Source: a bacterium A37T11
Lineage (GTDB): Bacteria > Bacteroidota > Bacteroidia > Sphingobacteriales > Sphingobacteriaceae
NCBI GenBank assembly: GCA_900109895.1
Contig: FOBR01000013.1
Span: 62,001 to 126,000 of the forward strand
Direction: 5' to 3'
DNA: 64,000 bases
Shown here: in pieces, positions 9,781 to 25,040 of the stretch
Layout of the letters: every line of letters starts with the position of its first letter
Numbering within the stretch: position 1 is the stretch's first letter
Translations under genes and position numbers: made by a program
Notes under the pieces: model-generated
The model's input: only the letters and a program-made list of their open reading frames with translations
Told to the model about the DNA's origin: nothing
The model's database searches: none

Positions 9781-12700
9781 ATGAAAAATAATCGTGCCAA
9801 TAAAGGCATACTTTCCTTTCTGTTGACTGCAATATTCATAGGTTGGGAAGCTATGGCATTTGGTCAAAGGGTCTCTGTCAATTTGGACAGAGCTTCCATG
9901 GAGACTTTCTTAACAACGCTTCAACAACAAACGGATGTAGCGCTGCTTTTTAATGAACAATTAGTGGCCAATAAAATAGTTTCAGTTAAGGCAAAAGATG
10001 TTGATATTAAAGATTTGCTTAAATCAGAATTGCCAAAATACGGATTATCTTACCGTGTCTCCAATAATCAAATTACCATAATTCCTGCTGCGCAATCTGA
10101 AGCTAATATAGTATCAAAAATTGGCGATGTTACCAAGCAGGTGCAGGTATTGCTTTCTGTAAAGGGACGTGTATTTGACAACAGTCAACCTCCTTCTGCG
10201 TTATCTTCCGTAACAGTGGCAGAGCAGGGTACTACAAATGCAGTGGTAACCGATGAATCTGGTTCTTTTTCTATAAAGGTACCAAAGGGAGCAACATTGA
10301 CTTTTAGTAGTGTGGGGCTCCAAACCAAACAATTGGTAATTTCAAAAAATGAGCCTTCGTTGACGGTTACATTGACGGATGAAGTCTCTGAACTGAATGA
10401 GATCGTAGTGGTGGGTTATGGCGTACAAAAAAAGGCTTCTGTAACAGGTTCGGTGGCGTCCATCCAATCAAAAGATCTGGTTAAGGTAAAGACGGCTAGC
10501 GTGACTAATATGCTGGCAGGTCGATTACCCGGATTACGTGCGGTGCAACGAAGCGGGGCTCCAGGCGATGATGGTGCTTCGATTGATATCAGGGGATATG
10601 GGGGCATGTTAGTTATTGTTGATGGTGTTGAACGTGGGTTTTCTGAGCTGGACGCGAATGATATTGAGTCAATTTCTATATTGAAGGATGCTGCCGCAGC
10701 AGTCTACGGATTTAAAGGATCAAATGGGGTTTTGCTGGTCACTACTAAAAAAGGGAGTGAAACTAAGACCAAATTGGAATATAATGGTTATTATGGGGTG
10801 CAGGATGTGACGCGTTATCCGCGTATGATGAATGCTTATGAATATGCAGCTTTGTATAATGAAGCAATTTATAATACAAACCCATGGACAGGTGTTCCTG
10901 CATACACTAACGAACAGCTGGCCGCATACAAAAATGGATCGGTTGGCACTGATTGGTGGGACGAAATGGTGCAACCCGCTGCGCCCCAGTCTTCCCATAA
11001 TTTAAGTGTGTATGGTGGGAATGACAAGGTTAATTTTTATAATTCGGTTGGTTATTTAAGCCAGCAGGGGATCTTGCGATCCAATGACTGGAATTTTGAC
11101 CGGTATAACATACGTTCCAATATCACAGTAAATGTGACAAAGGATTTTAGTGTAGATTTAAAGTTGAGTGGCCGCTACGAAAAACGGGATAAACCTTTCG
11201 ATAGTGATAACTTGTTTAGACAGGCCCAGGTTGCTGTACCAATATTTTCTATTTATGCCAATGAAAATCCTAACTACTGGCAAGCTGTAGGTGACATGGC
11301 AAATCCAATCCATACGTCTTATTCGGAAAATGCCGGGTATGAAAATAGGTACAGAAGAGAGTTTAATAGTTCGCTTACTTTCAACTGGAAACTTCCATGG
11401 GTAGTGGGTTTAAATGCTAAAGCTATGGTAGCCTACGACTATGAGAACAGTGAGTGGAAGACATGGCAGAAAGCACTTAATGAGTATACGTTTGATGCTT
11501 CTTCAGATACCTATAATGAAGTCGTGTTGCGAAATCTTTCGACATTGGAATCAAAGCAACAAAACTATTACAAACCCACCCAGCAGTATTCTTTAAATTA
11601 TAACCATTTGTTTGGTGATAAACATGATGTAAGTGGAATGCTTTTATGGGAGCTTTACAACGACCAGACTACCTGGGTGACGGGCTACCGTCAATTTGCC
11701 TTAGGTTTAATCGATAATCTTGATTATGGCGATGCAATAAACCAAACGTCTGGGGGTAATACTACCTCTACTGCACATGCGGGGCTGGTTGGTCGATTTA
11801 ATTACGCATATGATAGTCGGTATCTATTGGAATTTAGCTTTCGGGAAGATGGTTCTTATAAATTCCAGTCAGATAGGCGATGGGGTTTTTTCCCTGGAAT
11901 TTCTTTGGGGTGGCGTGCTTCTGAGGAATCATTCTTTAAAAGAATTTTGCCGGATGTAGATAATTTTAAGATCCGGGGCTCATATGCCAAAGTGGGAGAT
12001 GAAGGAAGCTTCGATGCTTACCAATATCTGGAAGGGTATACGTATAGCGGAAGCTATGTGTTGGGTGATGGTGGGTTGTCAACCGGTTTGTCAAGTAGCG
12101 GTTTGGCTAATCCCTGGCTTACTTGGTATGTGTCGAAAATAATGAATCTGGGCTTTGAAGGATCTTATAAACATGGATTGTTAACGGCCGAATTTGATTG
12201 GTTCCGCCGTGATAGGTCTGGTCTTCCGGCTACCCGCCAGGCTACCCTGCCCACGATTTTTGGGGAGTCAATGCCGCAAGAAAATCTTAATTCAGATTTA
12301 AACACAGGTTTTGAGATAAGCATTGGCCACAAAAACAAAATCGGTCAACTAGCATATAATGTGACTGCCAATTTTTCGACAACTCGTATTAAAAATAAAT
12401 ATGTGGAGCGTGCTGTTCCCACAAATATGTATGACAATTACCGGAATAATACGAATGATCGGAATACGGGAATTCAATGGGGTAGGGAAGTTATTGGTCA
12501 ATTTACTTCCTATGAAGATATCCTGAATTCACCGATACAGGATAATAATGGCAATAAATCGTTGCTTCCTGGCGATCTAAAATTCAAGGATGTCAATAAT
12601 GACGGGATCATTGATAATAACGACCAGGCTCCAATAGGACGAGGCACGACACCCACCATGTATTATGGGCTGAATCTGGGTGTAGATTACAAAGGCTTTG

Positions 12701-13164
12701 ATTTTAACTTGTTTTTTCAGGGAGGCGCTGGTCACGATGTGTACATCAGCGGGGATGTGTTGGATCCATTTATCCAGCAAGGACTTGGAAACGGTTTTGC
12801 TTTCATGACCGACCGCTGGCATCGGGAAGATCCTACAGATCCATCCAGCCCGTGGATTCCAGGCCTGATGCCTGCCGCACGGATTACTGGTCAAGCTGAT
12901 AATAGGTCTCAAAATTCTTACACATTGCATGATGCTGCCTATCTCCGTTTGAAGTCTTTGGAGCTGGGGTATACTTTTCCTACTACTTGGTTTAAACAAA
13001 TTGGCCTAGAAAAGGTCCGTGTTTACTTCAATGGCAATAACCTGTTGACCTTTACGGGTAAGGAAGGATTAATGAAATATATTGATCCTGAAAATAATGA
13101 TACATCTCTGAGGTATTACCCTCAGTTAAAAACGTATAACTTGGGTATTAATGTCATTTTCTAA
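9781..13164 (+). CDS. SusC/RagA-family TonB-dependent outer-membrane receptor with STN domain
   Basis: An 1127-residue transporter. After the signal peptide (about 1-28, MAFGQ) comes an STN domain (about 31-105, for signalling to FecR), a carboxypeptidase-regulatory-like beta sandwich (about 127-210), the TonB-box region (NEIVVVGYGVQKK), a plug domain with the SusC pattern (DIRGYGGMLVIVDGVERG, ILKDAAAAVYGFKGSNGVLLVTTKKG) and a 22-strand barrel ending in the aromatic NLGINVIF. It pairs with the SusD lipoprotein encoded next and imports oligosaccharides. With GH92 and GH130 nearby, a mannose-rich glycan is the likely cargo; that specificity is inferred. Confidence 0.96.
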   Translation: MKNNRANKGILSFLLTAIFIGWEAMAFGQRVSVNLDRASMETFLTTLQQQTDVALLFNEQLVANKIVSVKAKDVDIKDLLKSELPKYGLSYRVSNNQITIIPAAQSEANIVSKIGDVTKQVQVLLSVKGRVFDNSQPPSALSSVTVAEQGTTNAVVTDESGSFSIKVPKGATLTFSSVGLQTKQLVISKNEPSLTVTLTDEVSELNEIVVVGYGVQKKASVTGSVASIQSKDLVKVKTASVTNMLAGRLPGLRAVQRSGAPGDDGASIDIRGYGGMLVIVDGVERGFSELDANDIESISILKDAAAAVYGFKGSNGVLLVTTKKGSETKTKLEYNGYYGVQDVTRYPRMMNAYEYAALYNEAIYNTNPWTGVPAYTNEQLAAYKNGSVGTDWWDEMVQPAAPQSSHNLSVYGGNDKVNFYNSVGYLSQQGILRSNDWNFDRYNIRSNITVNVTKDFSVDLKLSGRYEKRDKPFDSDNLFRQAQVAVPIFSIYANENPNYWQAVGDMANPIHTSYSENAGYENRYRREFNSSLTFNWKLPWVVGLNAKAMVAYDYENSEWKTWQKALNEYTFDASSDTYNEVVLRNLSTLESKQQNYYKPTQQYSLNYNHLFGDKHDVSGMLLWELYNDQTTWVTGYRQFALGLIDNLDYGDAINQTSGGNTTSTAHAGLVGRFNYAYDSRYLLEFSFREDGSYKFQSDRRWGFFPGISLGWRASEESFFKRILPDVDNFKIRGSYAKVGDEGSFDAYQYLEGYTYSGSYVLGDGGLSTGLSSSGLANPWLTWYVSKIMNLGFEGSYKHGLLTAEFDWFRRDRSGLPATRQATLPTIFGESMPQENLNSDLNTGFEISIGHKNKIGQLAYNVTANFSTTRIKNKYVERAVPTNMYDNYRNNTNDRNTGIQWGREVIGQFTSYEDILNSPIQDNNGNKSLLPGDLKFKDVNNDGIIDNNDQAPIGRGTTPTMYYGLNLGVDYKGFDFNLFFQGGAGHDVYISGDVLDPFIQQGLGNGFAFMTDRWHREDPTDPSSPWIPGLMPAARITGQADNRSQNSYTLHDAAYLRLKSLELGYTFPTTWFKQIGLEKVRVYFNGNNLLTFTGKEGLMKYIDPENNDTSLRYYPQLKTYNLGINVIF

Positions 13165-22529: not shown

Positions 22530-23648
22530 ATGACTATGAAAGAAAATCGACAAAGACTTCTGTCGCTGGATGCGCTAAGAGGATTCGACATGTTTTGGAT
22601 CTCTGGGGGAGATTCAATTTTCCAAGTATTGGCAAAAGTGACCGGATTTGCCTGGGCTACCACCCTGGCCCTGCAATTTGAACATCCGGATTGGAATGGA
22701 TTTACAGCTTATGATTGCATATTTCCAACTTTCCTGTTTATGGCAGGAGTGTCTACCCCATTTTCATTCTCGAGCAGGCTGGCAAAAGGGATGACCCGTT
22801 CTGCACTTTTACGAAAAGCCATACAGCGCGGCCTGATTCTGGTCGTGCTAGGCATCATTACCAATAATGGGCTTTTTGAAAAGCCTTTTTCAGAAATGCG
22901 ATATGGGAGCGTATTGGGACGTATCGGCTTAGCTGGTATGTTTGCCCAGATTATCTACCTGTATGTGCCAAACAAAAAATATCTCTATATAATATTCTTT
23001 GCGATACTTTTACTTTACTGGGCTTTTATCTGTTATTTCCCGGTACCCGGGTGTGGTTTAGGAGAAATGACCATGGCATGCAATCCGGCAAGTTATTTGG
23101 ATCGTGTTTTAATGCCAGGCCACCTTTACAAAACCATTCATGATCCTGAAGGACTTGCATCTACTTTTCCAGCAGTGGCTACGGGGCTTTTGGGAATTTT
23201 AACAGGGATTGAGTTGCATAAACCAGAAATCAAAGATTCAAAAAGTCGAAAAGTTATAAATATGGCGGTAGCGGGAATAATTTTGGCAATTTTGGCTATT
23301 TTCTGGAATGAGGTATTTCCCATCAATAAGAATCTTTGGACAAGTTCGTTTGTGCTTGCAGCGGGTAGCGTAAGTCTAATCTTACTCGCGTTGTTTTACT
23401 GGGTGATTGACGTATTAAACTTCCGTAAATGGACGCTCTTCTTTGTCGTTATTGGCATGAATTCTATCGTCATCTACATGGCTCATCGGTTCATAGATTT
23501 TAATTACACTTCCCAAAAGTTGTTTGGTGGCCTATTGCACTATTTCCCATCATCTATTTCGGATATTGGCGGCGTATTAGGATTTATTGCCGTTGAATGG
23601 GCATTTATGTATGTTCTTTACCGAAACAAATGGTTTCTTAAAGTTTAG
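22530..23648 (+). CDS. DUF5009 / heparan-alpha-glucosaminide N-acetyltransferase-like membrane protein
   Basis: A 372-residue polytopic membrane protein with about ten helices. The opening LLSLDALRGFDMFWISGGD and GFTAYDCIFPTFLFMAGVSTPFS are characteristic of the NagX/HGSNAT-like acyltransferase family (DUF5009). Members sit near amino-sugar genes and may acetylate or transport glucosamine derivatives, but the bacterial activity is poorly defined. ATG 22530 is used; ATG 22536 is equally possible. It has a strong promoter of its own and is divergent from a ROK regulator, a class that often senses amino sugars. Confidence 0.8.
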   Translation: MTMKENRQRLLSLDALRGFDMFWISGGDSIFQVLAKVTGFAWATTLALQFEHPDWNGFTAYDCIFPTFLFMAGVSTPFSFSSRLAKGMTRSALLRKAIQRGLILVVLGIITNNGLFEKPFSEMRYGSVLGRIGLAGMFAQIIYLYVPNKKYLYIIFFAILLLYWAFICYFPVPGCGLGEMTMACNPASYLDRVLMPGHLYKTIHDPEGLASTFPAVATGLLGILTGIELHKPEIKDSKSRKVINMAVAGIILAILAIFWNEVFPINKNLWTSSFVLAAGSVSLILLALFYWVIDVLNFRKWTLFFVVIGMNSIVIYMAHRFIDFNYTSQKLFGGLLHYFPSSISDIGGVLGFIAVEWAFMYVLYRNKWFLKV

Positions 23649-23744
23649 GCAAATAAGCCTAATAAAAGAAACGGATTCAACTTTCAAATCATACTGTGAA
23701 AAGGAATGCGGTATAGTGGGCAGGAATTCATTTAAAAGAATTTT

Positions 23745-23807
23745 ATAAAAAAGGCCTTCGAACGGGGAGAACGAAGGCCTTTAAACCAATTATAAACCTA
23801 AATTATG
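23745..23807 (-). ncRNA. Candidate intergenic small RNA (about 60 nt)
   Basis: On the minus strand a promoter-like pair (23844-23814) predicts a transcription start near 23807. About 25 nt downstream is an 11-bp perfect hairpin (CGAAGGCCTTT with AAAGGCCTTCG, 11-nt loop) followed by a T-rich tail, i.e. an intrinsic terminator. The resulting RNA would have an unpaired AU-rich 5' segment and a terminator stem. It does not read into a gene. I recognise no named family; the identity is inferred from signals only. Confidence 0.45.
23750..23782 (-). terminator. Intrinsic terminator hairpin of candidate small RNA
   Basis: Stem 23750-23760 with 23772-23782, 11 perfect base pairs, loop of 11 nt. On the minus strand six T residues begin in the stem and continue into the tail; on the plus strand the T-run is shorter. 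It could also stop plus-strand transcription from the acyltransferase-like gene. Confidence 0.65.
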
Positions 23808-23813
23808 ATGACA

Positions 23814-23844
23814 CAAAGATAGTGTGATCTATACACTTTGTAAA
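23814..23844 (-). promoter_or_regulatory. Promoter-like pair for candidate small RNA
   Basis: Minus strand: TTTA (23844-23841, one mismatch to TTTG), 19-nt spacer, perfect -7 box TATCTTTG (23821-23814). There is no gene on this strand until after the terminator at 23750. Confidence 0.5.
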
Positions 23845-24061
23845 ATTATTTTTGAAATAAGACTTTCTGATGACAATTTCCCGCCCATGGAGGTGTGGCT
23901 AAAATGCCGACATTGTTCTGTGTCTGACGGATCCGATTGAACAAAGAATAAATCTTTGTCAAATAATCGGATAATAAGCATAGTTATTTTTGATATCTTT
24001 ACAGGCATTAGGGGCCTGCACAATGGTTACAAGGCCTTAAATATATTAAATTAGAAAAACG

Positions 24062-24961
24062 ATGAAAATTTCAATAGTACCGATATTGATGTTGGTAGCA
24101 TTGGTGTCAACCAGTTGTGGCGTCAGTAAAAAAGTGCATCAGGCCTTGCAGGCCAATTATGACGAATTACAGGTTAGGAATAGAGAATTAGCTAAGCGTT
24201 TTCAGGATAGCCAGCAGGAGCTTGCATCCAGTAAAACCCGGGTTAGCAGTTTAGAAGAACAGATTGCCTCAGAAAAATCAACCGTAGCCTCCCTACAGGC
24301 GGCGCTTGATAAATGCCTCACGTCAACCAGCGAGGGAAATGTAAATGTTTCAAAGTTGGTCGATGAGATCAATGCTTCAAATAAGTATATTCAGCACTTG
24401 GTGAATACGAAAAATAAGAGTGACTCACTGAATATGGTGCTGACCAATAACCTGACTCGTTCGTTGAGCCGTGAAGAAATGCAGGATGTGGATGTGCAAG
24501 TATTAAAAGGTGTCGTTTACATTTCCCTTTCGGATAATATGCTGTACAAATCGGGTAGTTATGAAATATCCGAGCAGGCAGGCGAAACGCTGAGTAAGAT
24601 CGCCAAAATCATCACAGATTATAAGAATTACGAAGTGCTGATTGAAGGAAATACAGATAACGATCCGATTAAGCAAACCAACATCCGGAATAATTGGGAC
24701 CTGAGTGCCCTACGCGCATCCTCGGTTGTCCAAGCTCTTCAGAATAATTATGGAGTGGATCCAAAACGCCTTACCGCTGGTGGGCGTGGAGAATACAATC
24801 CAGTAGCTGACAACAGTACACCAGATGGAAAGGCTAAAAACAGGCGGACACAGATTATTATTACGCCAAAGTTGGATCAGTTTATGGAATTGATCGACAA
24901 GGCTCCTGACAGCGACTCTACTGCCATTGATACAACCGGTACAGGGCCGTCATTGCGGTAG
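24062..24961 (+). CDS. OmpA-family peptidoglycan-binding lipoprotein
   Basis: 299 residues with a lipoprotein signal (LVSTSCGVSKK). Residues of about 30-95 form a coiled coil (NRELAKRFQDSQQELASSK and following), and about 165-275 an OmpA C-terminal domain with EGNTDNDPI, NWDLSALRASSVVQAL and KNRRTQIII, which binds diaminopimelate in peptidoglycan. It tethers the outer membrane to the cell wall. The last 20 residues are acidic and Ser/Thr-rich. It is monocistronic: a strong two-way terminator follows at 24992. Confidence 0.92.
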   Translation: MKISIVPILMLVALVSTSCGVSKKVHQALQANYDELQVRNRELAKRFQDSQQELASSKTRVSSLEEQIASEKSTVASLQAALDKCLTSTSEGNVNVSKLVDEINASNKYIQHLVNTKNKSDSLNMVLTNNLTRSLSREEMQDVDVQVLKGVVYISLSDNMLYKSGSYEISEQAGETLSKIAKIITDYKNYEVLIEGNTDNDPIKQTNIRNNWDLSALRASSVVQALQNNYGVDPKRLTAGGRGEYNPVADNSTPDGKAKNRRTQIIITPKLDQFMELIDKAPDSDSTAIDTTGTGPSLR

Positions 24962-24991: not shown

Positions 24992-25040
24992 TTATTACAT
25001 AAAGAAAGCCGGGCAAAACCCGGCTTTCTTTATGTAATAA
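24992..25040. terminator. Bidirectional terminator between OmpA and inositol synthase genes
   Basis: A perfect 22-bp stem (24992-25013 with 25019-25040) with a 5-nt loop CAAAA. The GC-rich core GCCGGG and A/T-rich lower arms give a U-rich tail on both strands, serving both converging genes. Confidence 0.9.

Follow-up and report, generated by a model that had tools for sequence, protein, structure and literature searches.

The window analysed here (64,000 nucleotides of contig FOBR01000013.1 of the Sphingobacteriaceae bacterium A37T11) carries on its minus strand one of 11 paralogous copies of a small RNA family which, judging from conservation and complementarity, probably acts in trans as a multicopy antisense RNA repressing carbohydrate import at translation starts. 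The window copy and its neighbours have the following features.

23841-23844, minus strand: -33 element TTTA, a variant of TTTG (read directly from the sequence)
23821-23837, minus strand: inverted repeat AGTGTATAGATCACACT between -33 and -7, probable operator (class A repeat statistics, see below)
23814-23821, minus strand: -7 element TATCTTTG (direct reading and aligned class A promoters)
23747-23808, minus strand: predicted small RNA of about 62 nt (covariance model R2 and fold)
23784-23808, minus strand: 25-nt core and predicted antisense seed TCATAATTTAGGTTTATAATTGGTT (conservation, and complementarity to SusC and SSF leaders)
23750-23782, minus strand: terminator hairpin, an 11-bp perfect stem of 23772-23782 with 23750-23760 (covariation)
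23761-23771, minus strand: terminator loop TTCTCCCCGTT, 11 nt (CCC motif counts)
23747-23752, minus strand: terminator T tract, six T (direct reading)
22530-23648, plus strand: converging neighbour, NagX-like acetyltransferase (334.9 bits against a model cut-off of 480)
24062-24961, plus strand: divergent neighbour with OmpA-like domain (none of the listed models reaches its cut-off)

The preliminary description of this region had proposed a TTTA-N19-TATCTTTG promoter, an 11-bp stem and a T tail, all of which were confirmed base by base at their minus-strand places, the N19 spacer separating TTTA (23844-23841) from TATCTTTG (23821-23814). The -33/-7 pair is of the Bacteroidota type; in 57 aligned copies, the first two positions of the -33 element are T in 93% and 86%. 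From the position of the -7 box, the 5' end would lie at about 23808 and the 3' end at about 23747, so that the predicted length (about 62 nt) agrees with the earlier estimate of about 60 nt. Covariance model R2 gave 91.1 bits (E 3.7e-14) over 23744-23813, the window copy being itself in the training set. In the predicted fold (-17.9 kcal/mol), most of the 5' part is unpaired and a single hairpin forms; the body between promoter and stem is AU-rich. The RNA was rightly expected to encode nothing and to read into no gene: it contains no ORF of 60 aa or more, a 64-aa minus-strand ORF (23829-24023) overlaps only its promoter region, and about 100 nt separate its 3' end from the converging NagX-like gene.

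It should be noted that a single promoter-like match and a single hairpin match are not by themselves beyond chance, because shuffled sequences give similar counts of promoter-like sites (28 in 8 kb vs 20.1 +/- 4.4 in shuffles; the same scan did not list the window hairpin, probably since its 11-nt loop exceeds the scan's loop limit of 8). The conservation of the locus does exceed chance, as 25 of the 60 genomes searched (own genome included) matched the query 23700-23900 (minus strand) at E <= 0.001, all in one family, while the 23 searched genomes of other families gave no match at this threshold. The best of these matches span more than 100 bases, and many weaker ones consist of the 22-25 nt core alone.

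The own genome contains eight matches to this query. The 25-nt core was found at nine own-genome sites with up to three mismatches (none for the backwards control), eight of them followed by a terminator-like hairpin and the ninth forming the leader of a symporter gene. Three more diverged hairpin copies (contig C34 at 78.1 kb, C28 at 39.4 kb and C57 at 71.6 kb) bring the total to 11 paralogues, window copy included, which share the 25-nt core with at most four changes; the copies found with mismatches differ mainly in its 5' part. Elsewhere, the exact 21-mer core occurs in at least 119 named-genome stretches, although such exact-match searches overstate the constancy of the core. The hosts named among the matches listed are Sphingobacterium, Mucilaginibacter, Parapedobacter, Olivibacter, Pedobacter, Arcticibacter, Rhinopithecimicrobium and Sphingobacteriaceae bacterium, apart from two MAGs titled only Bacteroidetes bacterium. 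A taxonomy look-up assigned Mucilaginibacter, Parapedobacter, Olivibacter, Arcticibacter and Rhinopithecimicrobium to Sphingobacteriaceae, to which Sphingobacterium and Pedobacter also belong. Model R2, built from alignment A3, was run on 247 genomes sampled from the class and detected the family in six, the own genome among them, all Sphingobacteriaceae; ten copies were counted in the own genome and 13 in genome G016. This class-wide search used stricter filters, by which weak matches were lost. Some copies stand in tandem (loci L016 and L203).

The absence of a named family was also borne out, in that Rfam at its gathering score returned no family match in the window. On 16 related loci, Rfam gave one tRNA and otherwise chance-level matches only. 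The window copy had no match among PLSDB plasmids and INPHARED phages, nor did one tRNA-like-linked copy and one IMG/VR copy in INPHARED, and the openly licensed PubMed Central literature yielded no paper on this small RNA family in Sphingobacteriaceae, which is weak evidence of absence.

The body of the RNA had been thought possibly conserved, and the core, which lies outside the stem, is in fact the most conserved part of the locus. The hairpin lies 100 nt past the stop of the converging NagX-like gene and might thus be only the 3' terminator of that gene, conserved in nothing but its stem; but its T tract is on the minus strand, ten other copies exist elsewhere in the genome, and the best conserved part is not the hairpin, so that this explanation is refuted by the conservation outside the stem and keeps a negligible probability.

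The hairpin itself is maintained by compensatory changes, which had been suggested as a check. In 47 loop-anchored hairpins (alignment A2, comprising 47 of the 48 collected; L214 was left out as a wrong hit), 96.7% of the cells are paired and ten of the 11 stem pairs are altered on both sides. This covariation was equalled in 0 of 500 shuffles, and pairing falls to 66-68% when the partner is slid by one column. The constancy of the loop within A2 is due to selection, because only copies with a CTCCCC loop were taken. Counted over every copy with enough sequence, loop CCC is present in 9/11 own, 129/131 named-genome and 19/34 viral copies, the last figure making the motif a feature of host copies rather than of all copies. 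Among terminators recognised in the named-genome loci, the CCC loop was found in 43/43 behind a core vs 4/177 others, the scan having recognised only 43 terminators behind a core. Taken together, the 11 paralogues, the constant distance between promoter and core, the conserved core and the compensated stem support the proposed promoter-body-terminator order of a small RNA gene, as far as sequence can tell. The multicopy status, the viral contigs, the complementarity to SusC and symporter starts and the likeness to FopS go beyond what the preliminary description contained.

Copies of the window type (class A) carry TAnnTTTG exactly 14 nt before AGGTT in 55 of the 57 copies that have TAnnTTTG. 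A strict inverted repeat, GTGTA-N4-10-TACAC, is present in 29/57 class A copies vs 1/1096 other TAnnTTTG sites, and the loose form GTGT-N5-11-ACAC in 37/57 vs 14/1096; the window copy lacks the strict form and carries a looser GTGT/ACAC repeat. In the other groups, the loose repeat occurs in 15/78 other host copies and 0/31 viral copies (seven of 173 copies, each sharing a locus with a class A copy, were kept out of these groups). An AGTGTA-N6-TACACT-type repeat located between -33 and -7 points to a common transcription factor for class A. A separate, earlier promoter classification had found a promoter in 45/125 host and 1/37 viral copies; its tRNA step found nothing.

Other copies have, by eye, (G)TCTTYTC before the core and promoter-like sequence 30-50 nt further up (L013, L014 and L016 of the own genome), and further ones lie directly 3' of a tRNA-like stretch. 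Such a stretch, conserved, tRNA-Leu-like and about 120 nt long, stands directly upstream of the core in L098, L119, L124, L134, L136, L140, L162, L201, L203 (with four such copies in tandem) and L213. It has matching acceptor ends such as GTAGGA/TCCTAC, a T-arm GGTTCGA and an odd middle part. ARAGORN called no tRNA in these loci, and Rfam gave no match at E <= 0.05 on L203 3900-5350; from its sequence, the stretch appears to be an unrecognised tRNA-like RNA to which the small RNA is attached.

The exact 21-nt core was also present in 37 viral contigs (IMG/VR, L217-L253), where the terminators are often unlike those of hosts. Twenty proteins from eight loci, seven of them viral contigs, were compared with PHROGs; in six of the seven contigs, phage packaging or tail genes were found no more than about 3 kb from the copy: portal and large terminase in L252 and L221, portal and small terminase in L246, large terminase in L225 and L230, and tape measure in L239. 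The single protein tried in L244 had no PHROGs match. In three of the 37 contigs (L230, L241 and L242), ARAGORN placed the end of a tRNA no more than about 12 nt before the core; the anticodon loops in L241 and L242 are odd. The eighth locus, L108, belongs to the Sphingobacterium mizutaii chromosome. Its copy and the adjoining flanks are identical to those of viral contig L224, which is therefore probably a prophage of Sphingobacteriaceae.

Multiple copies, tandem arrangement in L016 and L203 and occurrence in viral contigs might also be expected of a dispersed repeat or the attachment site of a mobile element rather than a regulator, and in 13/37 viral contigs the copy does lie within 3 kb of an end. 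We consider this highly improbable: the stem sequences vary between copies yet remain paired, the promoter keeps a constant distance from the core, and in 24/37 viral contigs (21/28 of those of at least 30 kb) the copy is at least 5 kb from both ends, where the attachment site of an integrated phage would not lie.

With little confidence, we suggest that phages and hosts share an importer-silencing seed. The phage copies, which have other terminators and sit close to tail or packaging genes or follow tRNA genes, might draw on the host regulon to lower SusC-type surface transporters, which could serve as receptors, and might in this way keep out rival phages, for example. In Mucilaginibacter, Arcticibacter and Pedobacter, the seed might in addition come from a tRNA-like RNA, as its released 3' trailer. 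That a phage would gain from down-regulating host receptors is speculation.

The antisense function is suggested by the reverse complement of the core, AACCAATTATAAACCTAAATTATGA, which resembles an AU-rich leader ending in a start codon. Pairing was evaluated by comparing ViennaRNA duplex energies with those of composition-preserving shuffles of the seed, SusC genes being defined by TIGR04056 and their starts picked by signal-peptide likeness, a heuristic. Of the SusC genes over the cut-off, 56/56 were used in the own genome, 43/48 in G016 and 37/40 in G013 (those left out in the latter two being N-terminally incomplete, broken or not fetched), plus ten in G037. With 56 SusC-type transporters in 5.09 Mb, the own genome is strongly glycan-oriented. 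The seed of the window copy paired better than any of 150 shuffled seeds with the SusC starts of the own genome (z -3.39), G016 (z -5.52) and G013 (z -4.80). The 107 ordinary own-genome genes gave a non-significant z of -0.72 (32/150 shuffles as good), the SusC coding stretches nothing (z +0.97, +0.82 and +0.55), and 684 genes from named family members likewise nothing (18/40 shuffles as good). One of these 684 is an artefact opposite a small-RNA copy; it was left in there and removed for the ATGA-start and A+T controls. When only ATGA starts were considered, SusC gave z -2.53, -4.14 and -4.63, and 433 ordinary ATGA genes z -1.01 (24/150); A+T-rich leaders gave z -0.77. Without the start codon, z was -3.52 in G016, -4.68 in G013 and a modest -1.86 (7/150) in the own genome. 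The SusC signal thus holds against the start-codon and A+T controls, but is weak in the own genome without the start codon. G037, of another family and with ten SusC starts only, gave z -1.25 (25/200).

G013 shows its strong SusC signal although a single variant copy was found there. This variant RNA, CATAACAGGTTTATATTTGGTTAG plus hairpin, occurs once each in G013 and G034, and its seed gave z -4.65 on G013 starts vs -2.41 on own-genome starts. Because the own seed pairs with the G013 starts as well as the variant does, no co-evolution of seed and targets is claimed. Strong duplexes overlap -30..+3 in 49/50 cases; as the stretch examined spanned no more than -50..+25, this position is given no weight as evidence. 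One of the 56 SusC genes lies in the window (10156-13161, plus strand) and, at -10.1 kcal/mol, is not a predicted target.

Leaders of sodium/solute symporter (SSF) genes behaved similarly, 26 of them giving z -4.82 (0/200 shuffles as good) and z -4.13 even when the best leader and the start codon were left out. Of 32 SSF matches, two had no locus; 27 of the 30 loci served for single relatives, and 26 for the pooled test, from which G044 (another family) was also left out. Among relatives, pairing was found in G013 (z -5.7), G021 (z -4.1) and G020 (z -3.7) and not in G015 (z +0.7 and +0.2), G016 (z +0.6) or G014 (z -0.8). The strongest single target found is an own SSF gene on contig C24, where pairing covers 24 nt immediately before the start (-26.6 kcal/mol, z -7.8). 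A ribulokinase gene lies some 2 kb away from this gene, and a further copy of the small RNA at a distance of 11-12 kb.

Given this complementarity to SusC and SSF starts, repression at translation initiation is the best-supported mechanism. About 11 loci would each make a short RNA (around 60 nt for the window copy), with an unpaired 25-nt seed near the 5' end followed by a terminator hairpin with a mostly C-rich loop. The seed would pair with the translation start of sugar-uptake mRNAs, namely those for SusC-type outer-membrane transporters of polysaccharide loci and for SSF symporters, and so block ribosome entry, the copies together repressing carbohydrate import. Class A copies would probably be switched together by a regulator at the promoter inverted repeat. 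We infer transcription, repression, the regulator and the signal to which it would respond.

The 25-nt core seems too constant and too long for pairing alone, and a protein may therefore also bind it. A further reading is that the RNA is real, with a core that serves mainly as the site of an RNA-binding protein or as a sponge for another RNA, the SusC complementarity being secondary. That the core hardly varies along its 25 nt, across many genera and in viral contigs, would fit, as would loop CCC in nearly all named-genome copies, suggesting a second recognition element, and the trailing of tRNA-like stretches by the same core. We regard this as rather unlikely, since the complementarity to SusC and SSF starts exceeds that of ordinary genes, coding sequence and shuffled seeds, and constant cores were selected by the exact-match searches themselves.

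Gut Bacteroides are known to control polysaccharide loci post-transcriptionally. In Bacteroides thetaiotaomicron, FopS consists of 14 paralogous sRNAs with canonical Bacteroides promoters, a 5' seed directed against SusC starts and a terminator, and is antagonized by RbpB; the pairing was tested in vitro with compensatory mutations, and a phage occurrence is reported as well (Ruettiger et al., 2025; PMC11697453). The antisense RNA proposed here is likewise multicopy (14 there, 11 here) and predicted to have an unpaired 5' seed followed by a Rho-independent terminator; its seed is complementary to SusC starts, statistically and in silico, and weakly so in the own genome without the start codon (7/150). 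Its length of about 62 nt compares with about 70 nt in the Rfam model of FopS (RF04319). Rfam aligned the whole of this model to 23814-23743, with UCAU and the UUUAAGGUU / UUUAGGUU stretches in line; the score of 19.1 bits falls short of the 56-bit gathering score and, with E 0.33 in a search of 91 bases, is no better than that of unrelated families, and membership of the window RNA in the Rfam family was rejected. For a G016 variant, Rfam did not list FopS at E <= 1.

The window family differs from FopS as described there in having another seed, and also in that copies lie behind tRNA-like stretches and that the class-wide R2 search saw it only in Sphingobacteriaceae. The loop CCC motif and the promoter inverted repeat are features found here and were not compared with FopS. 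No match at E <= 0.001 to RRM_1 (PF00076), the domain type of the FopS partner RbpB, was found in the own genome (97.48% complete), the control search giving a match in Bacteroides ihuae. By analogy, the window RNA probably works like FopS. A similarity also exists to GibS of B. thetaiotaomicron, which pairs with the messages of carbohydrate-related genes at their translation starts (PMC11697453). GibS is a single sRNA with two seeds, R1 and R2, unlike the one core in many copies seen here.

If the proposed function is correct, a FopS-like system with a different seed and no detectable RRM_1 partner would exist in another Bacteroidota family and in viral contigs, and importer silencing by multicopy small RNAs might be more widespread in the phylum as a strategy, whether it is ancient or arose twice. 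With dozens of SusC genes per genome and one seed, the family offers a clean test case.

Another hairpin, with a 20-bp stem and a T-rich tail, was noticed on the minus strand of the window at 24994-25038. It is situated between the OmpA-like gene and an inositol-phosphate-synthase-like gene and is probably a terminator.
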